Shown here piece after piece: positions 1 to 19,385 of a stretch of DNA of 21,557 nucleotides. Under the pieces are notes generated by a model. That model ran no database searches, had not been told where the DNA came from, and was given only the letters and a program-made list of their open reading frames with translations. The position numbers and the translations under genes are program-made. Origin of the DNA: a virus. The DNA is taken from positions 1 through 21,557 of the IMG/VR virus record IMGVR_UViG_3300022200_008430; one strand, given 5' to 3'. Every line of letters begins with the position of its first letter. Within the stretch, counting starts at the first letter, position 1.

Positions 1-646
1 ACATTTTTGCAACCTTTGAGTTTGATAAATTTTTATTTTCACTAAAAAGTTTTCTTATTTCTTCAACCTGTTCTTGGGTAAGTCGAGAATTAGGATTTTT
101 AGTTCCCGTTCTTGTCTTGGCGTATTCACTTATTTTCCTTCTACCTTCTGGGGAAGGAGGGGCATACATGTGTGGAAGAACGCCTCGCTTCTTTGCGGAT
201 GCGCTCATCTTTCTTTTGGTTTCCTCACTAAAAGTTTTACCTTTATGAGTCGCGCTTATCTTGGATTTGGTTTCTTCTGTGTGTTTTCTTCCAAGGCGGG
301 CTGCACGCAGTTTCTCTTTTGTTTCTTCGCTATGTTTTTTACCAAGCATGGACGAGCAGGTCTTTAATGCTTTGTTATATCCAATTTTTCTATTTAGACA
401 TCCACTCTCATCTATAATTTCCTGCTCCAAATCTAATAATTGTTCTTTTTTTGTTTCATGCAAGATTGAAAAATCAAAACAATCTTCCCCATACTTGTTC
501 CATGCATTTAGTAAATGTTCGTTTGAATGTATTCCTCTTCGTAAGCGAGATTTGTGAGAATACCATCTTCTTTCAATGTTTACACTGCTGCCTATATAAA
601 ATTTACCAGTTTTAAGATTTGTTATTTTGTATATTCCACAAGTCAT
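1..646 (-). CDS. GIY-YIG homing endonuclease with NUMOD3 repeats, 3' end outside window
   Basis: This is a free-standing homing endonuclease of the I-TevI type, which would cut a specific DNA site and so drive its own spread between phage genomes. 215 codons are open from ATG at 646 to the window edge, with no stop. The catalytic domain fills about residues 1-92: GIY at 4-6, YIG at 17-19, then R27, H31, H40, a glutamate in the LEQE segment (E74 or E76) and N91. These sit at nearly the same positions as the known active-site residues of I-TevI (Y6, Y17, R27, H31, H40, E75, N90). Three NUMOD3 DNA-binding repeats follow, starting GKKHSEETK (102), GRKHTEETK (119) and GKTFSEETK (136), with a degenerate fourth near 165-177. 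The visible end (about 186-215, RLTQEQVEEIRKL) looks like the start of a helix-turn-helix. GGTGA at 652-656 gives a plausible ribosome binding site 5 bases from the ATG. The gene follows the SbcCD fusion gene, which ends with its own stop, so it appears intergenic and not within an intron. Confidence 0.93.
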   Translation of the reverse strand, partial: MTCGIYKITNLKTGKFYIGSSVNIERRWYSHKSRLRRGIHSNEHLLNAWNKYGEDCFDFSILHETKKEQLLDLEQEIIDESGCLNRKIGYNKALKTCSSMLGKKHSEETKEKLRAARLGRKHTEETKSKISATHKGKTFSEETKRKMSASAKKRGVLPHMYAPPSPEGRRKISEYAKTRTGTKNPNSRLTQEQVEEIRKLFSENKNLSNSKVAKM

Positions 647-654
647 TTAATTCA

Positions 655-691
655 CCACCCATTTATCGGTTCGTCTATAATAAATAGGTAG
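655..691 (-). promoter_or_regulatory. Hairpin overlapping the homing endonuclease ribosome binding site
   Basis: In the minus-strand transcript the 12-base arm CTACCTATTTAT (691 to 680) can pair with ATAAATGGGTGG (666 to 655) across a 13-base loop (679 to 667). All 12 positions pair, two of them as G-U wobbles. The 3' arm includes the first two G residues of the GGTGA ribosome binding site (656-652), so the folded RNA would hide it in read-through transcripts from the upstream gene. T4 I-TevI is known to be controlled by a hairpin that sequesters its ribosome binding site; applying that here is inference. No folding energy was computed. Confidence 0.5.
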
Positions 692-704
692 GTCATCTAA
701 AAAA

Positions 705-3700
705 TTACACATTTATATAAGCATATCCATCTCTTTTTTCAATATCTATCGTCATATCAACAATGTCTTTCAAACCTTCAATATGGGTAATCAAAAATAC
801 AACTCTAAAATAACTTTTAATTAAATCTAAAATCCTCACAAACCCCTCCATGTTCTCAGCGTCTAGGGCGGTTCCCGGCTCATCTAAAATCATAATATCT
901 CCCTTCGGCATGTTGCTTACATTTAGTAGAGCAATTCTAATAGCAACAGCGGCAAGTGTTTTCTCTGCTCCTGAGCCATTCTCTAATGGTCGTGGGTCGT
1001 GTTTTGGATGTTTGATTTGAATGTCTAACTTATTGTCGTTGTTCTCAAAGAACACCTCAAACTCAACAACATTAGATAGAACTTTAGCGATCTCTGTGTT
1101 GATTACAGGTAATGCCTTCTTGATTACATCAAATGCGATGCCGTTGGAATGCATACAAGTCATGAATAAATCATAAGCAGAGTATTCCACATTCATCCTA
1201 TTCTTCTCTTCTTTCAGACTTTTTAGATTCTCCAACTTCTGCTCCAATGCCCCTTGCTTACCAACAAGAGTGTAAATCTGATCTTCGCAATCTTGTAGTT
1301 CTTGATCGGATCTTTCTTTATTAGTCTTCGCAAGTTCTAACTCGGTCATGACCTTTTCGATATTCTCAAGAACTTCTTTGTGCTCTTCGTAGTAATCTGC
1401 TACATCGTTTAGTTCTTTGATTTCACTTTCTAACTTTTGTAAAGCAGTGTTGGTTCGCTCTAAATCAAGAGTTAGGTTGGTCAATCTAGATTGTTCATCT
1501 TTCTTTTTCTCAGTTAGACGAGTCCAATTACTAATTGTGTTGCTGACTTTATCCACATCAATATCAGATAATTCACCAGCATTTAGTTTTAGTTTGTCTT
1601 CAACCTCGGACAAAACCTTCTTTGTGATTGATAAGTCCTGTTTAGCATTATGAGCATCTTTGATGAACTTACAAGAAGTTAGGAATTTGTCTCCACAAGG
1701 GATGTCTGTTAGAATTTTGATTTGACGGAGACTTGTTTCTTTTTCTTTCTCTTTCTTTTGTTGCTCTCGCAATAGTTCATCAATCTTATCTTGTAGTCCG
1801 TCCGCTTCTTCCTTTTGTTTGTTGAGGTTTAGGATATCGATTGTCTCTAATAGAGCATCTGCCTTTTCTAAAAAGCCTTCTTTGTCTTTGATCTCATTAG
1901 TTAGAGAACTGATTCTGTCTTTGAGAGACTTTTTATTTTGTCCTAGTCGCTCTAAGTCCTGACGAACTTGGCGAATAGAGATTGGATCTTCTGGAATCTG
2001 AGCAAGTTTATTCTCTAACTCAGCAATCTCATCCAACACAGAACTTAAGTTTTCCTTTAGTTCCGTACACAAGTTCTTTTGCTTTGCTACTGCTGCCCCT
2101 GCTCTAAAGATGTCGTCTTTTGTTTTCTTGATGTCCTCATCATAATCAACATCTTGGACTCTACGAAGGGCTCCTCGCAAATCAGCGGCATCATCTTTTG
2201 CTAACTTAAACTTTCTCTCAAAGAACTCTAAGTCAAGGAACTTTGCTAGAATTTCTTTACGACGGGTTGATCCTTCGTTGATAAATCCTAATGCTCCCAA
2301 CTGAGAAGACATCGATGTGTTTAGGAAGTCGTCTAAATCTCCGAAGACATTTCGGATTGCTTTGTCTGTACCGCCTCTTTCCGTTTGGTTAAGCGAGCCA
2401 ACCTCGCCCGATACTTGGTCCACATAGTCAAAGTCTGCTTGGGTTTTAGCCTCGTTCGTAACTTTGCCTTTAAGCTTCTTAATATATTTATCAGATCGGC
2501 GTGTGATTTGGTAAGTCTTATTATTAGCCTCAATCTCCACCAAACCAGACCCATAGTCTTTGTTCTGGTTGATAATGTTGTAAGTTTTTCGAATATTTTT
2601 AGAAGTATTATTATAAACTGTATAAAGCAAAGCATCAATGACGCTAGACTTTCCGCTATAATTTTTACCAAAGATTCCAACAGTCCCAGACAACTTATCA
2701 AAATCAATAGAGTTGCCCTCGCCATAGTTGAACAAATTGTCCCAACTAAACTTCTTAATCCGCCAGTGAACATTTCTAGATATATCTTCGTTCTCTTCAA
2801 CAACTTTGTTGTACTTTGAGTTAAGAGCGAAGACTTCATTCAGGGTATCCTCCGTAATATTGTAGTCTTTGAGGTACTCTTTAATTAGATCTTGTTGTGT
2901 CTTCTCATCTCGTAAGTTTTCAAACAATTCTGTGTCAATATTATTTTCCACCGATAAATCGTTTGTATTCGCTTTATTGAGGAAGGTAATACTCTCGGGC
3001 TTAAATCTATGCTTGGCGATGTCTACGGCTCTCCTGAGCCGTTCTAGAGGTATGTTTGAGTCTGCTACAAGTCGTAGTCTCGCTCCGTCTGGACAATTGA
3101 AACCATTTGGAATTCTGCCTGACTTGGTGAGTTTGATTGTAATAAAGGGTTTTGGGTTTACAAAGTTAATTTTTTCTCTTGTAAACTCTGTTTTGGACTG
3201 AATGTCCCAGATGAACATGCCTTTATCGTCTGTCTCACCAAAGTTTTGTTGGATTGTAGAACCAGCATAGGCAATTGTTCCTTCTTTGTTCAAGACCTGA
3301 GTTTTATGGATATCCCCAAGCATAGCATAATCGCAATCATCAAATATAGAAATGTTATGCTCTCCGTGCTCCATAACGAATCCAATGTCTGTACGGCTAT
3401 ATTTGATCGCACCATGGTAAAGTCCTATGTTGATTTTGTCTGGATTGGTTGGTTTTACCCAATTGTCTTCATCGAATACTGAAAGAACATTTAGACAAAA
3501 CTTATCGTCCAAGTGTGTCTCGCCAGCATTCTTGAGTAGATGTAAGTTCTTATGATCTAGGGCATCTACAATAGGAGTGATAGCATCCTGTCGGTAAGAG
3601 TTCCGTAGGTTGCCGTCATGGTTTCCTAGAATGATATATGTGGGGGCGATATCCGCCAGATTCTTCAGGAAGTCGGAGCATAACTCAACGAACTCTGGTG

Positions 3701-3857
3701 AAATCTGGGTCTTTGTGTGTGCGATATCGCCGCAGTGGATAATGTAATCCACTTCCCGTTCTTTCAAAGTAGCATAAAGTTGTTTGAATACTGCTTTATA
3801 CTCTTTGTGATATTTTAAATTTTTGATGTGTGTGTCTGCTATGTGAGCGAATTTCAT
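705..3857 (-). CDS. SbcD-SbcC (Mre11-Rad50) single-chain fusion nuclease/ATPase, gp47-gp46 equivalent
   Basis: This 1050-residue protein joins both subunits of the DNA-end-processing complex that are separate genes in T4 (47 and 46) and E. coli (sbcD, sbcC). The N-terminal Mre11-like nuclease has metal-binding motifs ADTH (D8, H10), GD (D44), GNHD (78-81), YHG (H148) and GDIH (181-184). Residues about 365-1050 are Rad50-like: Walker A G397-x4-G402-K403-S404, a Q-loop glutamine near 519, then long charged helices typical of coiled coil (about 545-720 and 735-890). A hook candidate C721/C729 lies between them. The ABC signature is NGSGAEK (960-966), Walker B is IMILDE (D992, E993) and the H-loop histidine is 1025. 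The expected role is ATP-driven end resection and cleavage of hairpins or branched DNA during phage recombination-dependent replication. The start overlaps the primase stop as TAATG. There is no frameshift or internal stop, so the fusion looks genuine. The spacing of the hook cysteines is unusual. Confidence 0.95.
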   Translation of the reverse strand: MKFAHIADTHIKNLKYHKEYKAVFKQLYATLKEREVDYIIHCGDIAHTKTQISPEFVELCSDFLKNLADIAPTYIILGNHDGNLRNSYRQDAITPIVDALDHKNLHLLKNAGETHLDDKFCLNVLSVFDEDNWVKPTNPDKINIGLYHGAIKYSRTDIGFVMEHGEHNISIFDDCDYAMLGDIHKTQVLNKEGTIAYAGSTIQQNFGETDDKGMFIWDIQSKTEFTREKINFVNPKPFITIKLTKSGRIPNGFNCPDGARLRLVADSNIPLERLRRAVDIAKHRFKPESITFLNKANTNDLSVENNIDTELFENLRDEKTQQDLIKEYLKDYNITEDTLNEVFALNSKYNKVVEENEDISRNVHWRIKKFSWDNLFNYGEGNSIDFDKLSGTVGIFGKNYSGKSSVIDALLYTVYNNTSKNIRKTYNIINQNKDYGSGLVEIEANNKTYQITRRSDKYIKKLKGKVTNEAKTQADFDYVDQVSGEVGSLNQTERGGTDKAIRNVFGDLDDFLNTSMSSQLGALGFINEGSTRRKEILAKFLDLEFFERKFKLAKDDAADLRGALRRVQDVDYDEDIKKTKDDIFRAGAAVAKQKNLCTELKENLSSVLDEIAELENKLAQIPEDPISIRQVRQDLERLGQNKKSLKDRISSLTNEIKDKEGFLEKADALLETIDILNLNKQKEEADGLQDKIDELLREQQKKEKEKETSLRQIKILTDIPCGDKFLTSCKFIKDAHNAKQDLSITKKVLSEVEDKLKLNAGELSDIDVDKVSNTISNWTRLTEKKKDEQSRLTNLTLDLERTNTALQKLESEIKELNDVADYYEEHKEVLENIEKVMTELELAKTNKERSDQELQDCEDQIYTLVGKQGALEQKLENLKSLKEEKNRMNVEYSAYDLFMTCMHSNGIAFDVIKKALPVINTEIAKVLSNVVEFEVFFENNDNKLDIQIKHPKHDPRPLENGSGAEKTLAAVAIRIALLNVSNMPKGDIMILDEPGTALDAENMEGFVRILDLIKSYFRVVFLITHIEGLKDIVDMTIDIEKRDGYAYINV

Positions 3858-4807
3858 TATGCTAACCTGTGATTCAAAAGTGAAGTCTCAGTGAACTTCT
3901 TAGCTTTTTGCTTTCTGTTGTGATAGATGTTTCTCGGCATTACACCGACATCTTGATAGCCCTTTGTATTAATTTTGTAAACATCAATCCCGTAAGACTG
4001 AAGAGATTTAGCAATCGCAACTTCTTTCTTTTGAGCATCGTGGTCTAGGGCTAAGTAAACCTTTGTGTTATGCTCTGTAATCTTTTGAAAGAGTGGATGT
4101 TGCTCGTCTAATGTTGAACCCAAGATAGGAACAACATTACCACTAGCATTGATAGCATCAAAGACACCTTCAACGATTACTAGTGGCTCATCAAAGTCCA
4201 AGAATAACTCGTTGAAAATAACTTTCTTAGAGGCACTTGGGTTCTTGTACTTTGGAAAAGCCTGCTTTGTAAACGACCTAGCAATAAAGTAGTTGATGTC
4301 TCCGTCCTTATCGAATGATGGAATAATAATCCTATCTTTGTAAAGCCCACTAGTACAGTAGCCAATCTTCCAAGTTATGATCTCTTCTCTCTCAATGTCC
4401 CTTCTACGAAGATAAGAGAGTGCTGGTAAAGCACTAGCAGAGAGCTTGTTAGATGTTAGTGTAGCAAACTCTTCTGGTAAGTCAATCTTTTGCTCTGTAA
4501 GCATCTGCTCTGTTGGAGGATTCAAGATCTCCGTTAGCTGTAACTCTAAGTCTGAGTGGTCAAAGATGTTACAAAGAGCATACCAATCTTCTCGTTGGGC
4601 TCGTGAGCCGTATCGCTTGATTAAATAAGTTACATCGTTACCTGAGAAGTCGCAAACCCAGCACTTAAATTTATTTTTATCTAAGTTGACCGACATCTTT
4701 TTCTTATGATGCTTACACTTAGGACAATAAAAAAGATTCTCCTTCCCATGATAGAAAGGAGAGCCTAAAACTTCTTTCAAGATTTTTAGTTTCTTTTGTC
4801 CTGACAT
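3857..4807 (-). CDS. DNA primase, DnaG type with zinc ribbon and Toprim domain, no helicase
   Basis: This 316-residue protein would make RNA primers for phage DNA synthesis. An N-terminal zinc ribbon is formed by C28, C31 (CPKC) and C49, C52 (CWVC). A basic primase-core segment follows at about 159-179 (RIIIPSFDKDGD then an ARSF motif). The Toprim catalytic core has the acidic motif VIVEGVFDA (E213, D217) and the DxD motif LALDHD (D255, D257). At this length it lacks the C-terminal DnaB-like helicase fused to the T7 gp4 type, and no helicase gene is visible in the window. The ATG at 4807 lies 22 bases inside the end of the RuvC-like gene, preceded by AGGA at 8-base spacing. The stop overlaps the start of the SbcD-SbcC gene. 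Its place between a resolvase and a resection nuclease fits a replication/recombination cassette. Confidence 0.9.
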   Translation of the reverse strand: MSGQKKLKILKEVLGSPFYHGKENLFYCPKCKHHKKKMSVNLDKNKFKCWVCDFSGNDVTYLIKRYGSRAQREDWYALCNIFDHSDLELQLTEILNPPTEQMLTEQKIDLPEEFATLTSNKLSASALPALSYLRRRDIEREEIITWKIGYCTSGLYKDRIIIPSFDKDGDINYFIARSFTKQAFPKYKNPSASKKVIFNELFLDFDEPLVIVEGVFDAINASGNVVPILGSTLDEQHPLFQKITEHNTKVYLALDHDAQKKEVAIAKSLQSYGIDVYKINTKGYQDVGVMPRNIYHNRKQKAKKFTETSLLNHRLA

Positions 4808-5310
4808 TTAATAGATCCTGCCTTTGCTAGAACAACTCCATCTGCTCGGTCGCAATAACCTGCCTTTGGATTGCCGTGTCTAGTATATTCTACTTCAAAA
4901 GTAGGCTCCATGTCAAGGACTGCTTCAAGTACGACTTTCTTAGTGTTTTGTCCACGAGCGATTTTAACATCGCATAACTTTCTCGCCTCTGAAGCTCCAA
5001 TGTAGTCCGGTTCGATCTTAAACATTTCGTTAACTATCCAGCTTACCATCCCATTGAATCTTTGTAGGGTCGCCATCGTTTTAGCAGATGACCCGCCCGA
5101 ATTGAAGAATGTGAATGGTTGCTCAATAAAAATATGCTCTATTGAGTTTAAATTTTTTAATTCTAATAATGAAGCTCTTACTTTGTTAGCCTTATCAAAG
5201 ATGTTCTTTTCTTTTCTTGTGTCGATGTGATCAGTATACAATAATTTGCCTGATTTGTCAACAATTGCTAAGCCTGTAATGCTTGTAGAAATATCTAAGC
5301 CTAAGATCAT
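4786..5310 (-). CDS. RuvC-like Holliday junction resolvase (RNase H fold)
   Basis: This 174-residue protein is the size of bacterial RuvC and would cut four-way or branched DNA during recombination or before packaging. The RNase H-fold acidic residues are visible: D6 in the first strand (LGLDISTS), E63 in FIEQP, and D154/D157 near the C-terminus (CDRADGVVLA). The segment IGASEARKL (about 104-112) also fits RuvC-family proteins. The start ATG at 5310 overlaps the stop of the upstream virion gene as ATGA and has no clear ribosome binding site, so translation probably depends on coupling. The last 22 bases overlap the primase gene. It is confidently a RuvC-fold nuclease; its exact substrate is inferred from family and neighbours. 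Confidence 0.9.
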   Translation of the reverse strand: MILGLDISTSITGLAIVDKSGKLLYTDHIDTRKEKNIFDKANKVRASLLELKNLNSIEHIFIEQPFTFFNSGGSSAKTMATLQRFNGMVSWIVNEMFKIEPDYIGASEARKLCDVKIARGQNTKKVVLEAVLDMEPTFEVEYTRHGNPKAGYCDRADGVVLAKAGSIKCQDKRN

Positions 5311-8706: not shown

Positions 8707-11697
8707 TTATGCCTCAGAGATTTCTTCATCTATCAATTCCGAATACTGTTCTATCTGTTTTAATAGAGCTTTTGTCTGTATTGGCTGTACCTTTTGTGTG
8801 TACTTTAAATTTATGTCAAAGACTCTTTTACTCTTCTTTGAGCGAACTCTAATTTTAAATTTAGGTGGTTGACCGCCTGGATTTAGTTGAGTACCATCAG
8901 GAAATACAGTTGTGGTATATACTCCCGATACGCCATCTCCAATTGAAGAGGCATCAACAGGCTGTAGCTGTTCAAAACTGGGCTTAACTTTAAGAAGTTT
9001 TTGAAAAGTCTTTGTAATAACTTTCTCATCTTCTACTGGATACTCATAAATGTTAATCTTTGCGTAAACATATCCAGAGTCCTCCACAACTTCAACTTCG
9101 TAAGTGAAGGAGGCATTAGAGTATAGCCCAACAATATCTCTACTAATAAAGGTATAGTAATATTTTTGATTTGGGATTACATTGCTTATGTAAGCTGTCT
9201 CACCATTTAAATAATCCAAGACAAACTTTTCACCATTATCAACTAAGTCTTGTAAACTTGTTGGTGGTCTATCTAATTTTCTAGCGTGTATTTCTGATAA
9301 ATCGTTTTCAGATCTAACAAGAACCATACCAGAGTCTAGATTAGGTTGAATTTCTTTAGATTTTGCTTTAACCTTTTCAACTAGTGATTTACCACCACTA
9401 ACATTTAAAGTATTGAATGCTGCGTCAGGCTTAACAGCTAGATAATCAAACTGAACAGACTCATCAAATCTAATCTTTATTTTATTATTCACATCGGCTA
9501 AAGCAACAAATGTGGCGTCTGGAGCTACTGGGGCTACATCAATATTATCCACTTCTAGACTTGGCTGTAATGGTAATTCAAAAATTCTTGATGAGTTGCT
9601 TTCAAATAGATCGAAATCAAATCTATCAAAAAATTCTTTTTGAGGTTCTTGAATTTCAATGAAAGATATTAAATTTTGATTAGGGTTAAAAAATACATCA
9701 TACTTTGAATTTATCTCTTCTCGTATACCGCTTAGAGAATATTTAAATTTATCAAACACGCCGTTTACAGGAGCTTGTCCTATTTGTCTTATTGTTAATT
9801 GTGAGGCAGTTGCTCTTCTTTGTATGTAATAATAAATAAAAATATCTTCACCAGTTTCAAAACTACGAGTTCGTTGACTAGCAATAAATTGAATTTTTCC
9901 AGTAGGTATTACATATTGATCTTGACTTAAGCCAGAAAACGGTACGCCTATTTTATAAAGTGTTCCTGGGAATGGTTGATAATCGCCATCTGGAATTTCT
10001 GGTAATATAGTGTCTATCCTTGCTTCAGTTTCAACAATCTCTGGGAACGCAAATCTCTGGAGTTCTTTTTTGGTTGTTAAAGTTAAGTTATCATAGTAAT
10101 AAAACTTACCATCAACATTATAAACACCAAGCAATGTATAGTAATATGTTTTTCCATAGATTATCTGAGAGTCAAAAATTCTTACCTGTTGTGAATCTTC
10201 TCTCAAGCGAATTGGGATATGATATGTCTGAACAACAGAGTCAAGCCAGTTTTGGTATAAATTTGGGTTTAAGGGCTGTTCGCTTTTAACAAGCTTTAAG
10301 CCAACAAGCCTTCCTCTTCTCACCAAGTTGTCTTGAACTGACCCATACGAGTAGCCTTTGCCTAAACTATCAACTGGCATAGCGCCTTTAAATAAGTTAG
10401 CCATTGTTACATTTTGAGGATTCTCAACGGCAAAAGTTTTTGCTGAAAACTTGTCAAAATTAAATGGAGTGGATAGTAGTGTAAAAATAGGAAATTGAGT
10501 ATTGCCAGCGGTATATTTTAATGAATCAAAATATTTTTCATAATCTTGTAATGAAGAGTCAGCAAGAAAGCTTGTTACCGCTGTTGCTAATTGTTCTTTT
10601 AGTGACTTTTGCTTTTCGATTCTTTCGTTATACAAAGCTAGTTGTTTTATAATTGATGCGTTTGAATTAGCTGAATTGTCTCTAAAGCTTGCTGCGTCAT
10701 TAACAGTAAATCCATAGTAGCGGACAATGTAATTCGCAAACCCAGTAATTAAACCTTTAGTTTTTGTATTGCTAATTCCATCTAACTCACTTAAGAAATA
10801 ATCTAAAATAGCAGCATCATATTGACTTATGCATTCTTGAATTGAGCTAATTGAGACATCATTTATCTTAGGAGTCGCTGGACTAGTTGTGTATGTAATT
10901 ACGCTTGTACTATTCTCAACCGGTGGAACTTGTATAGTTACAACGTTGTAGGCTTTATCAATACCAATGTCGCCTTCGCCACCTTCAGCTTCTATGTTTT
11001 TTTCTATTGAATCTGTCTGATTTGTAAAATAAATTAAATTTTGTAATTTAGAGATTGGATCTTTCGATAGTTCATTTTCGTTATCCGCTTTTACTTGCCA
11101 CTCTTGGTAGTTAGTCGCCAATTCAGTTTGTTTAGAGATTAACTCTAATTCACCATCTACTTTTGTTGTTTTAAAAGCATAGGCAAATTTCAGTGTTGTT
11201 TCGTCTTTATCTGGATTTAACTCACCGCCAGTGAAAAAATCATCGTTACTAGAGATGTCTGTTTTTTGTAGTTCTCTTGCTACAGTTCTTACAGACAAAG
11301 AAAAACTATCTTTACGTTCAATTCCTTCAGGTTCAAAGTTGTAGTCTTGAAACATTTGACCTGCCTGGGTTGTTTCAGCTTTTGAATCTAATGTCGCAAA
11401 TTTTTCTATCAACTGTTTATGAATAGCGTCTGGTATTTGATCAGCCGTTAAATTATTCACGCCGATCTTGATTGAAAATTTATTATCGCTTTCCTGAGTG
11501 AAAGTACAAAATCTTAAAGCATCGATGGCTAAGTTTAAGTCATTATCATTGGTGAGCGCCTTTTCAGACTGAGAGCCTTTGTAAATTAAATAATTTAAAA
11601 ATAACTTTCTCAACTCATCTGATGAAACCACAGTTCCATCGCTACTAAGATAGTGATCAAAAATAAGTCTATTTGGTGGATTGAAGTCTGTCGTCAT
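8707..11697 (-). CDS. Large phage virion protein with FN3-like segments
   Basis: This 996-residue protein is not matched to a named family. The N-terminal third (about 1-230) is mixed and acidic. A helical stretch lies around 290-400 (NERIEKQKSLKEQL region). Two segments look like fibronectin type III or similar beta-sandwich ends: YGKTYYYTLLGVYNVDGKFY near 515 and PNQKYYYTFISRDIVGLYSN near 850. The C-terminus is basic (KFKIRVRSKKSKRVFD) followed by an acidic helix. There is no signal peptide or membrane segment. The ATG at 11697 starts one base after the previous stop (TAA-A-ATG), with no clear ribosome binding site. Size, composition and its place among virion genes suggest a tail, baseplate or fibre component. 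That is inference. Confidence 0.65.
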   Translation of the reverse strand: MTTDFNPPNRLIFDHYLSSDGTVVSSDELRKLFLNYLIYKGSQSEKALTNDNDLNLAIDALRFCTFTQESDNKFSIKIGVNNLTADQIPDAIHKQLIEKFATLDSKAETTQAGQMFQDYNFEPEGIERKDSFSLSVRTVARELQKTDISSNDDFFTGGELNPDKDETTLKFAYAFKTTKVDGELELISKQTELATNYQEWQVKADNENELSKDPISKLQNLIYFTNQTDSIEKNIEAEGGEGDIGIDKAYNVVTIQVPPVENSTSVITYTTSPATPKINDVSISSIQECISQYDAAILDYFLSELDGISNTKTKGLITGFANYIVRYYGFTVNDAASFRDNSANSNASIIKQLALYNERIEKQKSLKEQLATAVTSFLADSSLQDYEKYFDSLKYTAGNTQFPIFTLLSTPFNFDKFSAKTFAVENPQNVTMANLFKGAMPVDSLGKGYSYGSVQDNLVRRGRLVGLKLVKSEQPLNPNLYQNWLDSVVQTYHIPIRLREDSQQVRIFDSQIIYGKTYYYTLLGVYNVDGKFYYYDNLTLTTKKELQRFAFPEIVETEARIDTILPEIPDGDYQPFPGTLYKIGVPFSGLSQDQYVIPTGKIQFIASQRTRSFETGEDIFIYYYIQRRATASQLTIRQIGQAPVNGVFDKFKYSLSGIREEINSKYDVFFNPNQNLISFIEIQEPQKEFFDRFDFDLFESNSSRIFELPLQPSLEVDNIDVAPVAPDATFVALADVNNKIKIRFDESVQFDYLAVKPDAAFNTLNVSGGKSLVEKVKAKSKEIQPNLDSGMVLVRSENDLSEIHARKLDRPPTSLQDLVDNGEKFVLDYLNGETAYISNVIPNQKYYYTFISRDIVGLYSNASFTYEVEVVEDSGYVYAKINIYEYPVEDEKVITKTFQKLLKVKPSFEQLQPVDASSIGDGVSGVYTTTVFPDGTQLNPGGQPPKFKIRVRSKKSKRVFDINLKYTQKVQPIQTKALLKQIEQYSELIDEEISEA

Positions 11698-13954: not shown

Positions 13955-14796
13955 TCTGGTTCAGGCTCACATAGTTCTTCTGGATCGGCTACTATCTCTG
14001 AATAAATATCTTTTGTTTTGAAATTACTTTCAAATCTAGCTTCTTCATCAAGCAATACATTGAAATATTTTTCAACAGAATCTGGACTATCAATATTTTC
14101 TTCATCAAAATAAAGTCTTTTCAACTTGTATTGATCCTGGGAAGCCCCATTTGGCTTCAATATTTCAAATACCTCTATCTCAAACTCTCTAGCTTCTGCT
14201 GGTTCAAAAACATTTAGCTCCTCTAAAAATATGAAAAGGTCCTCATTTCTATTATCAAAATACAATCTAGTTCTGTTACCACCGTTAGCTAGTTCTTCAG
14301 TATATTGATAAAGTTTGTAGTTGACGTTAACATTAAATTGAGGAATTCTTTCTTCAAAAGTGTTAACAGATTTGAGAGTACCACTTGATGTTTGTTCATC
14401 GTTTAAATTAGTTAAAAAGATATCTTTTTGAGAAGTTGAAAAAACATCTGGTAAATAAGGGCTTTCATTAAATGAAATCTGCCATGCTGGGGCATATTCA
14501 TTTTGTATTTGATAACTTCCTATTGGATTTTTAAGAAGATTTGTATTATCATTTGTGATAGTACCACCCAAATCATTAATCTGATCTATAGATGGTATTG
14601 CTTTATCATATAAACCATCTTTAATTCTTTGCTTAGAAGCATTCTGAACCTCGTCATTATCTGCTTCATAAACAATATCAGCGTCATAAAATTCATAGTA
14701 GGCTGGCTTAAATTTGCCCTTAGCCATGAATTCGCGACCTTCGCGGGTCAGAATAACGTCTAATACTTCTTGTTTTTTATCAAAAATATCAGCCAT
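13951..14796 (-). CDS. Phage virion protein sharing the N-terminal LTxEGR...GxFK domain
   Basis: This 281-residue, strongly acidic protein begins with VLDVILTREGREFMAKGKFK (11-30) and FYDADIVY (36-43), the same short domain that begins the 335-residue protein encoded at 7641-8648. The rest differs. A middle segment (about 140-230) is beta-like and acidic (VNVNYKLYQYTEEL, then FEIEVFEILKPNG), and the C-terminus ends in an acidic tail (DPEELCEPEPE). The start overlaps the stop of the giant virion gene by one base (TAATG). The stop overlaps the next start as ATGA. A shared N-terminal domain on otherwise different proteins suggests a common attachment site in the particle. The function is otherwise unknown. 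Confidence 0.7.
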   Translation of the reverse strand: MADIFDKKQEVLDVILTREGREFMAKGKFKPAYYEFYDADIVYEADNDEVQNASKQRIKDGLYDKAIPSIDQINDLGGTITNDNTNLLKNPIGSYQIQNEYAPAWQISFNESPYLPDVFSTSQKDIFLTNLNDEQTSSGTLKSVNTFEERIPQFNVNVNYKLYQYTEELANGGNRTRLYFDNRNEDLFIFLEELNVFEPAEAREFEIEVFEILKPNGASQDQYKLKRLYFDEENIDSPDSVEKYFNVLLDEEARFESNFKTKDIYSEIVADPEELCEPEPE

Positions 14797-17700
14797 TATT
14801 CATCATCTCCTTCATATTCTAGTCCTAAATCAACTTTTGCCATTTCAATTAATGAGTAGAAGTCATGTGGATAGTTGTAACCAAAGATAGAATTCACAGG
14901 CTCAGTTCCATAAATTGATTTATTCTTAATCTCGCTGTAAGTCAAGTTTCTACGATATTTCGCCTTAAATATCTTAAATCTCATTTCTTTTGGTAGCTTA
15001 CCACCAAATAGGTCATTATTTAAAACGCTTGGGCTGATAATTTCACCCTCTTTAATATCATGAGTTATATTAAACTTCTCCATTGAGACTTTTGTACCAG
15101 CGCTGGGTAGAACACCTTGCCACCATTTAGAAAGATCTTCTTGGTTTAAATCTTGTGTTACTTCAAAAATATACATTGCGAAAGGTGGTAAAATTGGACC
15201 ATAATCATCCTGTTCCAATCTACGATCAGCGGCATCTCTCTTTAGCATATAATTTAATTTTGGTGGTAAAATCAACTCTCTTTGTAAAGCCAGCATATTT
15301 GATAAAGTACTTCTGTTTTCTTTATCGATATTTGAATATGCTCTTTCAAATTGATCTACTGGATAGTGAAAGAATACCTCTTCTTCACACTCGTTCGTTA
15401 CAAATGGGACTACAACTAAAAATTCTTTTAATTTAGTACTCTCAGCTAACTGGCTTACAACCTTTTGCTCTGCTTCAAAACCAACTGCTTCAGCTAAAGA
15501 TCCAGTGGTTCTAGCCACCTCTGTCCCTGGTCCTCTTACAAACAACTTCAATCCACTATTTGTATCAGTTGAATATTGATGCCAGACTCCTCTGTTAATA
15601 TCGTCATCTGCCGTTCCATCGCCGCCATCAGTTCCATCATACTTAATCGCTGTTACTCCGACATAGTTATGAACTGGGCATTCCCATCTTAAAGTTGGTG
15701 TCCACTGTGATTCATTGTTTGAAGCAAATAAATCAACGCCAGCTTCAATAGTCATAAACGGAGAGCTTGAATTAACTGATGATTCTCCGTAGCCATATGT
15801 TGCTGCTGCGTTCGAATCAACCATTTGTTTATTCTTATATGTTTTTGTTGAATAGTATAAAATATCGTTTAAAGTGGGGTCTCTTTCTGTTACAGCGGTT
15901 CTAAAAGAATTATAATCAAAATTTAATGTAACAATTGCTTCATTTTGAGCCCATGATGCTGCTGGATCTATTGCTCCCTCAACCCTTGTTGCTGAAACTG
16001 ATCCGAACTGTCTATTCCAGGTTGTAAGAGAAGAAGTTTGTGACTGATAAAAACAAGAATGTACAATATATGGAAAACCATTTGCCGATGGATCGTCGTG
16101 GTTTGTAAAGTCAGGCTTCTTAGAAACTACAATATCCATTGAGTAGTTATCAAAATTGCCCTGTGAAAAGGTCCACTCTGATACGGGCTTGCTTTTAATT
16201 GATGTTAAAGTTGAGTTCTGAACAAAAGTATCCACTACACCAGCATAAAAGTTTGATGCTGCTAGGGCGTACTTTGGATCAATATATCCGATAGAAGCTG
16301 TAGAATTAAACTGGTTTTCAAAGTCATTTTCTATGATAGAAGAAGACACATTTATGTGTGTTGCTGGATCTATAATAGCCTCAAAAGGAATTCTATTCCA
16401 TTTTTGAGTGGTAGAATCTGGATTTATTTCTGTTGGATCTAATGGATTTGTTATGCTTCCACTTATCCAATTGGCGCTATCAATAGCAACGCCAGCCCTG
16501 ATTGAGCCATATGTTAATCTAGAAAATATAACATTGTTTAATGTTTGAAAAGTTGCTGCCGATCCTGCTAGGCTTACATTAGGACCAATTGATGAACTAA
16601 ACAAAGTAGATAATTGTAAAGTTCTTTGTGAAGGATAAAAGCCATCATATGGTAGTAGCTTTTTAGCTGCGCTCAAATTAATTGAGATTTTTTTAGCATC
16701 CCTTTCTTGGATGTTTCTTACAATTTCAATTGCTGGAATGTCGTCAGAGTGAGCGTATGTCTCTAGGAAGCTCTCATTATTGTCCGTTGTTTGACTGCCT
16801 GTTAGTGATAGGGATTGGTAGCTGTTGTTAGATAGATCATAACCATTATCAACAATGTCGCCAATATGTTCAGAAATTTTATACTCTGGTACAATTGAAT
16901 GATCCTTTGCTATGATTCTTAATTCACTATTCCAAATTGAATAATTATCGTCAAAAGCTCCCTGACCAGCAGAATCGCTAGTTCCAAATTGTACTGTATT
17001 TCTTGGAGAGCTAGCAGTCACATAAGTATAGTCTCCTACAGTTAAATTATATAATTGATATCTACCAAATCTAACGTTTAAATCACCAAGTACTTGACCC
17101 GGCTCTTGATTGATGTTCATCAATTCGCCGCGATGTGAAGGAATTGACGCGTCCTCACCAACATCCATGGACCAAAATGAGAAAGGCTGATAGCTAGCGC
17201 CTTGTTGTGATCCATTTAGATTTGCGACTCTGTTATCAAGACTATCTCTCCAATTAAAAGAAAAACTGCTTCTATCTCTTGCTTTTGATAAGTAAGCGTT
17301 TGTCTCTTTTGGATAAATTGTTTCACCATAAACAACAGAATTTAGTTTAACAGCGTTATTACCTTTTGTGTAAAGGCTAGATACCGCGTTAAATAAAGAT
17401 TGTCTCTTGTCTAAATTTTTAAAGTTCTTTAAACGATCAGGGTTATCAATCTTACTACCACTGTAATCATAGTAGTTGCCGTAAAAATCGTAGTTATTAG
17501 CATAAGTGTAATAAAGTAGCAAATCTTTTTCTATCTTTTCACCGCCGACAACCTCTTCAGATTTTACATTATGTATTACTGGTTTGTATTTTGAAGATAC
17601 TGGAGAGTGATTAATTCTTATTTCACCGGGCTCTGTACCGGCTATAATCAAATTATTGTTTCTTAAATACGTTGCTACAGGATGTTGTCCAGTTCTTAAC

Positions 17701-19385
17701 TGTTTGAATGATGGATAACCATATGGACCATTTATGTTTAAGAAATAAATACTAGCAGAGGAGGGCTGTGTTCCATCCGTGTAAGCAGTTGGAGCTACAA
17801 TTAAATTGCTATTAGCAGTCAATTCATAATGATAGCCTGCGGTACCTATTTTGCTGGGCGGTGTTGAGTATCCTAAAAAGTTAACTATCTCTGCTTCGCC
17901 TACACCCCTTAAAGAACTACTGTAGAAGGTAAGACCATCAGAACTTGAAGCAAATCCATAAAGACCATCCATAGATAAGGCTGGGTCTGCTGATGAACTA
18001 ATCCACCAATATCCAAAATCTTTCCTTGGAATATTGTAAGAAACAAACCCATTATCAAATAATGAACCAGTGTAAACAACTCCTGCCGAAGTTGTCTTTA
18101 GTTTGTTTACTCTATTCCTTTGGACTTTATGAAATGAACCTGTTGTTGTTGATCCTGATTCGTAACCACCAAAGGCAGATGGAGTTTGGTAAAATGAATT
18201 TAAATTGTTTACTACTTCTCTGTTTCTATATGGTAAAGCGTTATAAGGGCTGTATTCAGCCGCCTCAACATCAAGATATCCCTCACTTAAAGTGGCAACT
18301 TCACCTGGGGCTGAAAAGCGATTAACAATAACAGTTTTATTGTATGTTCCATCAGATAATGCTCTATTTGGTAAAGCAAAATCAATTACGCCAGATACTA
18401 CTGTTGATTCTGACTCGGTGATATCGAAGCCGCCCTGATCTCTAAAGGCTAAATTATTTTCTTTTCTACCATTCGTGTTTACAACTTCATAGTTGCTTGT
18501 GAAGTTGCCTAAGTGTTGTGAGCCTGTTGTGGTTTTAATATTTCTTACATTGTAAACTCTTTTTACCAACTCTTCTCTAGAAAATTTAACTCTGGGAATG
18601 TTCATGTCATAAGTTGAACCGCCAAAGTCTTGTCTCGGATTAAAGATTTGAACCTTGTTTGCTCCACCATAATTCTCTATTTTATAAAGTTCTGGGCGGT
18701 CTTCAGATTGTCCAACCTCTGTGTGTCTGTGTTTGTAACCACCAACATGCTGCTCTGTAAATGGGCTTTGTAGTGGTGATTGAAAATCATCACCATAATA
18801 CAAATCAAGATGGTGACCCATTAAAGAAGCATCTGTTGAATCAAAAAACCCACCTTTACCTGATATTGTAAATCTTAATGGAAGCTTTTTTGGATCAATA
18901 GTGTTTCTACCAGTTCTAGAATTAACAATCTCAACACTAAAGTCAGCAAAGTTTTTTACCAGTTCTTGATCAACTATTGGCTGATCTTTTTTGGTTAAAA
19001 ATATGCTATTTCCAACCCTTTCTGATTGGATCAAAGGTAAAATAATATTGCCTTCTTGGTTTGCTCTTTGCGATCCATAAAAAGCAATGATTTCATACTC
19101 TCCGTCAATAAAGCCAGCTACGGCTCTGTTTTCAAACTCCACCTCATTTAATGTAGCAATGTGTGTTGCTATTTTAGTTTTTTGTATACCAGAGTCTCCA
19201 CTGTCCAAGCCAGCTTCATCTCTTTTGGCATATATGGCGTACCAAGCGTTTGTTCCGGTTGAATCATCAGCATTTGTGTATCTAGAGTTCTTGTATGAGC
19301 TTAAAAACTGATTTACTTTTTCAGAGGCTTGCCTGTTTAGTGGAACTAAAAATGGTTGAAAATGTCTTTTCTTTATTTCACTCAT
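14796..19385 (-). CDS. Giant phage virion protein (1529 residues)
   Basis: This is the largest gene in the window, and it resembles, from memory, a giant structural-protein family of large aquatic phages. Recognisable blocks include EQHVGGYKHRHTEV (211-224), with a histidine cluster H213, H219, H221; VNRFSAPGEVATLSEGYLD (about 355-373), then YNALPYRN; and SFHKVQRN (about 415-422). Near the C-terminus are FAMYIFEVTQDLNQEDLSKW and, at the end, YNYPHDFYSLIEMAKVDLGL. Composition is Ser/Asn/Tyr/Gly-rich, with no signal peptide or transmembrane helix. The start ATG overlaps the upstream stop as ATGA. Such a protein is probably a tail, baseplate or host-contact component. The histidine cluster could bind metal, as in some tail-tip proteins, but this is inference. 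Confidence 0.75.
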   Translation of the reverse strand: MSEIKKRHFQPFLVPLNRQASEKVNQFLSSYKNSRYTNADDSTGTNAWYAIYAKRDEAGLDSGDSGIQKTKIATHIATLNEVEFENRAVAGFIDGEYEIIAFYGSQRANQEGNIILPLIQSERVGNSIFLTKKDQPIVDQELVKNFADFSVEIVNSRTGRNTIDPKKLPLRFTISGKGGFFDSTDASLMGHHLDLYYGDDFQSPLQSPFTEQHVGGYKHRHTEVGQSEDRPELYKIENYGGANKVQIFNPRQDFGGSTYDMNIPRVKFSREELVKRVYNVRNIKTTTGSQHLGNFTSNYEVVNTNGRKENNLAFRDQGGFDITESESTVVSGVIDFALPNRALSDGTYNKTVIVNRFSAPGEVATLSEGYLDVEAAEYSPYNALPYRNREVVNNLNSFYQTPSAFGGYESGSTTTGSFHKVQRNRVNKLKTTSAGVVYTGSLFDNGFVSYNIPRKDFGYWWISSSADPALSMDGLYGFASSSDGLTFYSSSLRGVGEAEIVNFLGYSTPPSKIGTAGYHYELTANSNLIVAPTAYTDGTQPSSASIYFLNINGPYGYPSFKQLRTGQHPVATYLRNNNLIIAGTEPGEIRINHSPVSSKYKPVIHNVKSEEVVGGEKIEKDLLLYYTYANNYDFYGNYYDYSGSKIDNPDRLKNFKNLDKRQSLFNAVSSLYTKGNNAVKLNSVVYGETIYPKETNAYLSKARDRSSFSFNWRDSLDNRVANLNGSQQGASYQPFSFWSMDVGEDASIPSHRGELMNINQEPGQVLGDLNVRFGRYQLYNLTVGDYTYVTASSPRNTVQFGTSDSAGQGAFDDNYSIWNSELRIIAKDHSIVPEYKISEHIGDIVDNGYDLSNNSYQSLSLTGSQTTDNNESFLETYAHSDDIPAIEIVRNIQERDAKKISINLSAAKKLLPYDGFYPSQRTLQLSTLFSSSIGPNVSLAGSAATFQTLNNVIFSRLTYGSIRAGVAIDSANWISGSITNPLDPTEINPDSTTQKWNRIPFEAIIDPATHINVSSSIIENDFENQFNSTASIGYIDPKYALAASNFYAGVVDTFVQNSTLTSIKSKPVSEWTFSQGNFDNYSMDIVVSKKPDFTNHDDPSANGFPYIVHSCFYQSQTSSLTTWNRQFGSVSATRVEGAIDPAASWAQNEAIVTLNFDYNSFRTAVTERDPTLNDILYYSTKTYKNKQMVDSNAAATYGYGESSVNSSSPFMTIEAGVDLFASNNESQWTPTLRWECPVHNYVGVTAIKYDGTDGGDGTADDDINRGVWHQYSTDTNSGLKLFVRGPGTEVARTTGSLAEAVGFEAEQKVVSQLAESTKLKEFLVVVPFVTNECEEEVFFHYPVDQFERAYSNIDKENRSTLSNMLALQRELILPPKLNYMLKRDAADRRLEQDDYGPILPPFAMYIFEVTQDLNQEDLSKWWQGVLPSAGTKVSMEKFNITHDIKEGEIISPSVLNNDLFGGKLPKEMRFKIFKAKYRRNLTYSEIKNKSIYGTEPVNSIFGYNYPHDFYSLIEMAKVDLGLEYEGDDE

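Follow-up and report, generated by a model that had tools for sequence, protein, structure and literature searches.

The window analysed here is the whole 21,557-nucleotide stretch of viral DNA (IMG/VR record IMGVR_UViG_3300022200_008430), at the left end of which an sbcD-sbcC fusion gene is followed, on the minus strand, by a short leader and a homing endonuclease gene. The features of this locus are the following:

2-646, minus strand: 5' part (215 of 234 codons) of a GIY-YIG/NUMOD3/HTH homing endonuclease gene, complete as L003:5338-6042
653-694, minus strand: predicted leader hairpin, its 3' arm with a Shine-Dalgarno-like GGGTGG (654-661), its loop and 5' arm holding a putative target copy
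667-687, minus strand: copy B of native Walker-B coding DNA, CTATTTATTATAGACGAACCG, which would read LFIIDEP; proposed operator or target mimic
690-704, minus strand: copy A, a weaker Walker-B-like repeat, TTTTTTAGATGACCT, 22 nt upstream of copy B
705-3857, minus strand: chimeric sbcD-sbcC fusion ORF of 1050 aa, both host gene and putative target
705-918, minus strand: foreign sbcC 3' end of ~70 codons (left boundary approximate), which would have arrived together with the endonuclease
876-896, minus strand: Walker-B codons recoded to IMILDEP, where the native motif is [LIV]F[IV]LDEP; putatively a target version that resists cutting

The first-pass annotation had described the left edge as an I-TevI-like GIY-YIG endonuclease, and the minus-strand stretch from 646 to 2 is confirmed as the start of such a gene. 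The frame is open from its ATG and runs off the window edge, as had been noted, after 215 codons; the leftward extension then recommended is supplied by L003, a contig that overlaps the window by 3,857 bases without a mismatch and in which the frame continues intact to a stop at 234 aa and closes with an HTH-like C-terminal stretch ending in KVAKMYGVSLSTIKRVKYGISYKN. The same 234-aa protein is encoded by L002, a 96%-identical contig of another assembly. Profile searches, likewise recommended, return Pfam GIY-YIG (4.7e-12) and NUMOD3 (4.7e-13), NCBIfam TIGR01453 (98.8 bits, the cut-off being 56) and the I-TevI catalytic domain 1mk0 in the PDB (3.6e-15); that domain is the closest solved structure both by sequence and in a Foldseek comparison of an AlphaFold model (mean pLDDT 83.6; TMt 0.86-0.89 to 1mk0 and 1ln0). 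Neither of the two outcomes named at first pass as counting against the annotation, a lost frame or a missing GIY-YIG match, was therefore observed. The catalytic residues agree with this assignment, since Y6, Y17, R27, H31, H40, E74 and N91, the Y, Y, R, H, H, E and N of the I-TevI type, are unchanged across 27 homologues. R27, H31, H40 and N91 had been named correctly at first pass, and the glutamate, placed there at 74 or 76, is settled as E74 because it is this residue that is invariant. The three to four NUMOD3 repeats originally counted are reduced to 2-3 stretches by the HMM. Separate C-terminal DNA-binding modules are thus present, with NUMOD3 above cut-off and HTH matches below the Pfam cut-offs, the model placing C-terminal helices at 191-203, 209-216 and 220-227; the Pfam scan showed no zinc finger match.

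The adjoining gene fuses SbcD and SbcC in a single ORF (705-3857), as do dozens of related metagenomic phages, and its nearest isolate is Microcystis phage Mel-JY01, with a full-length match of ~29%. A DnaG-type primase (3857-4807) and a RuvC-like Holliday junction resolvase (4786-5310; weak PHROG matches of about 1e-8) precede sbcDC, a replication and recombination block that adjoins apparently structural genes. A structural-looking protein of 1529 aa (14796-19385) has no match among 50,697 phage records. The phage seems to belong to a group without close isolates.

The endonuclease had been viewed as an element placed just after sbcD-sbcC; the adjacency holds, whereas the idea that it merely follows the gene does not, as the 3' end of sbcC has also been replaced. 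Compared with that of its nearest kin, L090, the window sbcC shows 84-87% nucleotide identity upstream of Walker B and 70% over the last ~190 nt. In L003, a second SbcC C-terminal copy (running from ILDLVKGYFDVTLLITHIE to EISKTDDGYAFVNQ and a stop, with a frameshift inside) lies directly after the endonuclease stop and is 90% identical to the native L090 tail, including a perfect stretch of ~55 nt. The tail in use thus matches L090 at 70% and the displaced copy at 90%, and therefore the working sbcC is chimeric, its native 3' end having been pushed behind the endonuclease. The proposed comparison with insert-free relatives leads to the same result, in that endonuclease-free close relatives (L082-L084, L088-L091, L108, L110, L115) have sbcC ends of the displaced type and not of the type in use in the window. 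Similarly, the displaced tail of L005 is 83-87% identical to L234, L239 and L253 and the tail in use 69-75%; because the L005 remnant is closest to its own kin, L003 and L005 represent independent events.

A displaced native tail is recognised behind the endonuclease in three lineages (L003/L002, L005 and L384), its frame broken in L003/L002 and uninterrupted in L005 and L384. The displaced tails of L005 and L384 start at the Walker-B codons, and that of L003 starts ~60 nt further on. None is recognisable in L004, L312/L313, L124 or L387; candidate alignments to kin in L004, L313 and L124 were rejected, as they were confined to a few bases immediately ahead of the next gene. The divergence of the tails in use was judged against 287 pairs of endonuclease-free sbcC genes, in which the tail was compared with the 900 nt upstream and proved on average more conserved (+0.035). 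In carriers the relation is reversed (L003, -0.069; L004, -0.118; L312, -0.104; L313, -0.108; L005, -0.029), with 7% of the control pairs reaching the value of L005 and 1% that of L003.

Duplicated sbcC ends also occur around other cargo. Beyond the window, at L003:6796-6871, another displaced sbcC tail follows the first after 690 nt, a nested displacement. The cargo between them consists of an MKITKDYLKKL gene, an MMAAAKAF gene that is truncated and joined to the end of the adjacent gene, and an MKVGDLVK gene; because this cargo is unrelated, some duplications here may arise without the enzyme. The endonuclease-free L085 and L086 have a duplicated sbcC 3' end (L085:9103-9630) on either side of a small MKITKDYLKRL gene. 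This gene belongs to a paralogous family with that N-terminus in common, and the L085 member at 10004-10870 has pentapeptide-like repeats.

The arrangement recurs well beyond the window. Endonucleases 50-70% identical to that of the window lie directly downstream of sbcC in L004, L312/L313, L005, L124, L384 and L387. In a tree of 60 GIY-YIG homologues, five sbcC-linked endonucleases (L003 included) form one clade with 100% support, and with two further carrier lineages found beside those of the tree, the gene occupies the same sbcC position in at least six sbcC lineages. The carriers fall into three separate clades of a tree of the sbcC core, from which the tail was excluded; between these clades the endonucleases are 60-70% identical and the sbcC cores 28-38%, an excess that is a mark of horizontal movement into one site.

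The position of that site is suggested by the Walker-B codons. The motif xF[IV][LM]DEP is found at 115 of 121 endonuclease-free sites (lost in 6) and is lost in seven of eight carriers, which have IMILDEP, IMCLDEP, TMICDEP (twice), SFWLDEP, LMVMDEP and TLFLDEP instead. The exception, L384, carries the endonuclease together with a native-type IFVLDEP, but there the endonuclease has lost ~37 aa and copy B of the leader is degraded. Recoding is associated with endonuclease presence (Fisher 1.3e-7, or 1e-5 when collapsed to six lineages, kinship being ignored in both), and a phylogeny-controlled version of the test had only three independent pairs and hence no power. Recoded Walker B without an adjacent endonuclease is found in L235 (SFWLDEP, L235:3832-4024), L314 (IMIMDEP, L314:2025-2217) and L102/L103/L106/L109; the sbcC genes of L235 and L314 are possible resistant or post-loss alleles and would fit a loss of the element after its spread. 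Leader DNA, in turn, matches native Walker B at up to 20/20 positions: when the best 20-mer of each of five leaders was located in 110 sbcC genes without the endonuclease, it lay on Walker B in 60-92 of them, as compared with 2/200 for shuffles. The starts of the displaced tails, the recoding and the leader copies all point to the Walker-B codons of sbcC as the probable target, and the recoded 3' end would confer resistance to the element's own enzyme. The sbcC neighbourhood had been raised as a cutting site at first pass, and on this comparative evidence the adjoining sbcC is very probably what is cut.

The leader between the two genes is about 58-64 nt long and carries a copy of the putative target. 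That of the window folds at -15.5 kcal/mol, and hairpins of -15.5 to -25.6 kcal/mol are predicted in the leaders of L003, L004, L312/L313, L005, L124 and L384, with a 3' arm that contains or abuts the Shine-Dalgarno; those of L004, L312/L313, L005 and L384 are homologous to the window's, that of L124 is different, and the leader of L387 folds poorly. The Walker-B copies lie mostly within the hairpin, and a second Walker-B-like core stands exactly 22 nt upstream in five of seven leaders (core identity of copy A to copy B at shift 22, 7/12 in the window and 11/12 in L124). The frame of the Walker-B copy relative to the endonuclease differs between loci, so the copy is conserved as DNA. As for known RNAs, only sub-threshold RybB matches to the hairpin (E 0.19) were returned, and these are taken as chance. 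I-TevI of phage T4, in the account cited, has a hairpin that hides the RBS, and also an operator that agrees with the homing site at 15/20 positions and is bound but cut about 100-fold less (PMC2988022). Since I-TevI combines both elements, it can be reasoned that the Walker-B copies and hairpin of the present leader would serve self-repression of the endonuclease.

A second interpretation of the leader, given considerable weight though rated somewhat below an even chance, is that the Walker-B copies are scars of past insertions into the target and that the hairpin is a terminator rather than part of a regulatory operator. It draws on a T-rich stretch past the stem in L004, L005 and L384, and on the right junctions of L005 and L384, which also hold target sequence, so that the endonuclease there seems to be flanked by target copies. 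However, the copies are still recognisable although the endonucleases have diverged to 50-70% identity, their 22-nt spacing is kept in five of the seven leaders, and the Shine-Dalgarno lies within the stem.

The locus as a whole is likely to be a selfish, 3'-end-replacing homing element, spread among uncultivated phages, that cuts sbcC at Walker B and installs a resistant 3' end, a proposal drawn from sequence comparison. During co-infection, the enzyme would cut the Walker-B codons of sbcC in phages without the element, and repair off the carrier genome would copy the recoded, functional, cut-resistant 3' end together with the endonuclease into the recipient. The recipient's own 3' end would be pushed downstream, where it may act as a right homology arm before decaying. 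In read-through transcripts the leader hairpin would hide the ribosome-binding site, and the Walker-B copies would be the operator for self-repression by the enzyme, with no cut made, as has been demonstrated for I-TevI.

It is unlikely, by comparison, that the gene is an ordinary free-standing endonuclease beside sbcC, of the kind of the T4 Seg enzymes, whose flanks were co-converted and whose downstream fragments would be tandem duplications that arose incidentally. Both free-standing endonucleases of phages and co-conversion are well documented in the literature cited (PMC2988022), sbcC-tail duplications surround other cargo nearby (the second L003 tail, L085/L086), and a displaced tail is missing from four carrier lineages; against this, the displaced tails of three lineages lie directly behind the endonuclease and are closer to their own kin than the tail in use, the tails in use are unusually divergent, and the leaders copy Walker-B DNA. 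A spliced element in sbcC, such as a group I intron, with a 5' part that mimics the C-terminus while splicing restores the native tail, is largely refuted and can be regarded as most improbable, for although TIGR01453 is named 'group I intron endonuclease' and the remnants of L005 and L384 keep an unbroken frame, Rfam finds no intron in the window, L002-L005, L124, L312 or L313, the tail in use is a complete homologous SbcC C-terminus, and splicing cannot restore a protein in L003/L002 or in the carriers without a tail, because the remnant is frameshifted or absent there.

The 3'-end-replacing element finds its closest counterpart in the WHO elements of Torulaspora and Lachancea yeasts (Coughlan et al. 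2020), in which an endonuclease gene lies downstream of its target gene FBA1 and is proposed to act through cutting of the target, carrier-templated repair that brings in a resistant 3' end, and displacement of the old end as a homology arm, with later decay and clusters of nested fragments (PMC7282813). The phage locus likewise has an endonuclease downstream of its putative target and united with a replaced 3' end, nested fragments, and, in L003/L002, L005 and L384, the recipient's old 3' end displaced downstream. The two differ in that WHO is a yeast nuclear element with an HO/intein-type enzyme bearing a zinc finger and directed at FBA1, whereas the phage protein is of the GIY-YIG/NUMOD3 type and linked to sbcC; the leader hairpin with target copies is a feature of the phage element, and resistance from the replaced 3' end, shown for WHO, is putative here. 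The phage element would work like WHO and is not WHO by descent.

Fungal mitochondrial 'gene hybrids' formed by mobile ORFs (Allomyces atp6; Glomus atp6, atp9, cox2 and nad3), as far as the source cited describes them, also combine a foreign C-terminus, an endonuclease ORF (GIY-YIG in one case) and a displaced native C-terminus, with a similar identity contrast of 91-98% for native and 64-81% for inserted C-termini (PMC3630166). They differ in being mitochondrial and mostly LAGLIDADG, and a target copy in a leader hairpin is not among the features described there. I-TevI of the T4 td intron shares with the phage element its catalytic domain (1mk0/1ln0), an RBS-hiding hairpin and a target-like site just upstream of the ORF; it lies in an intron and targets td, whereas the phage element is intronless and has sbcC as its probable target, and the operator role established for I-TevI is presumed for the sbcC-linked element. 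The Seg genes of T4 are similar as free-standing phage GIY-YIG genes that need no intron to spread, and differ in being intergenic, with cut sites hundreds to thousands of bp away and no displaced gene end described in the account cited (PMC2988022). In the open-licence literature, no paper was found on homing endonucleases of phages in connection with sbcC or gene-end replacement, and a prior description is possible.

Similar loci may be more widespread. An exploratory screen for the end of a flanking gene duplicated across the endonuclease returned 6 of 95 GIY-YIG loci against 9 of 782 other ORFs used as controls; Fisher's test gives roughly 0.003, a value that is probably conservative, because several of the nine control matches are nucleases (at least four by inspection, including an HNH-like gene at the nrdB 5' end, to which Pfam gave no name). 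The six loci comprise two sbcC lineages, the 3' end of a glycosyltransferase and the 5' ends of an endolysin, a Holliday-junction resolvase and an SH3/amidase-like gene. At L196:3023-4775, a GIY-YIG endonuclease and a family-2 glycosyltransferase form a single in-frame ORF of 556 codons, which is followed by a second glycosyltransferase C-terminus. Nuclease genes flanked by the duplicated 5' end of the downstream gene are found at L131:3791-5309 (endolysin), L134:2900-4267 (Holliday-junction resolvase), L034:10560-12238 (nrdB), L037:9290-10685 (SU10-type adaptor) and L010:5750-7136 (SH3/amidase-like gene), which suggests a mirror-image, 5'-end-replacing form and a wider class. It is an evenly poised proposition that phages harbour a general class of gene-end-replacing homing cassettes, a WHO counterpart in which the 3' or 5' end of an important gene is swapped for a cut-resistant version, and of which the sbcC branch keeps a target copy in an RBS-hiding hairpin for self-repression.

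SbcCD-type nucleases help to process the breaks on which homing depends, which makes sbcC a notable target. Gene-end replacement has so far been described in yeast nuclei and fungal mitochondria; if the present interpretation is true, it would add to introns and inteins a third means by which a homing gene can reside in an important phage gene, and one that requires no splicing. It would also account for conserved phage genes that acquire chimeric ends, and the cut site, the resistant alleles and the self-repression site of such elements would be predictable from sequence alone.
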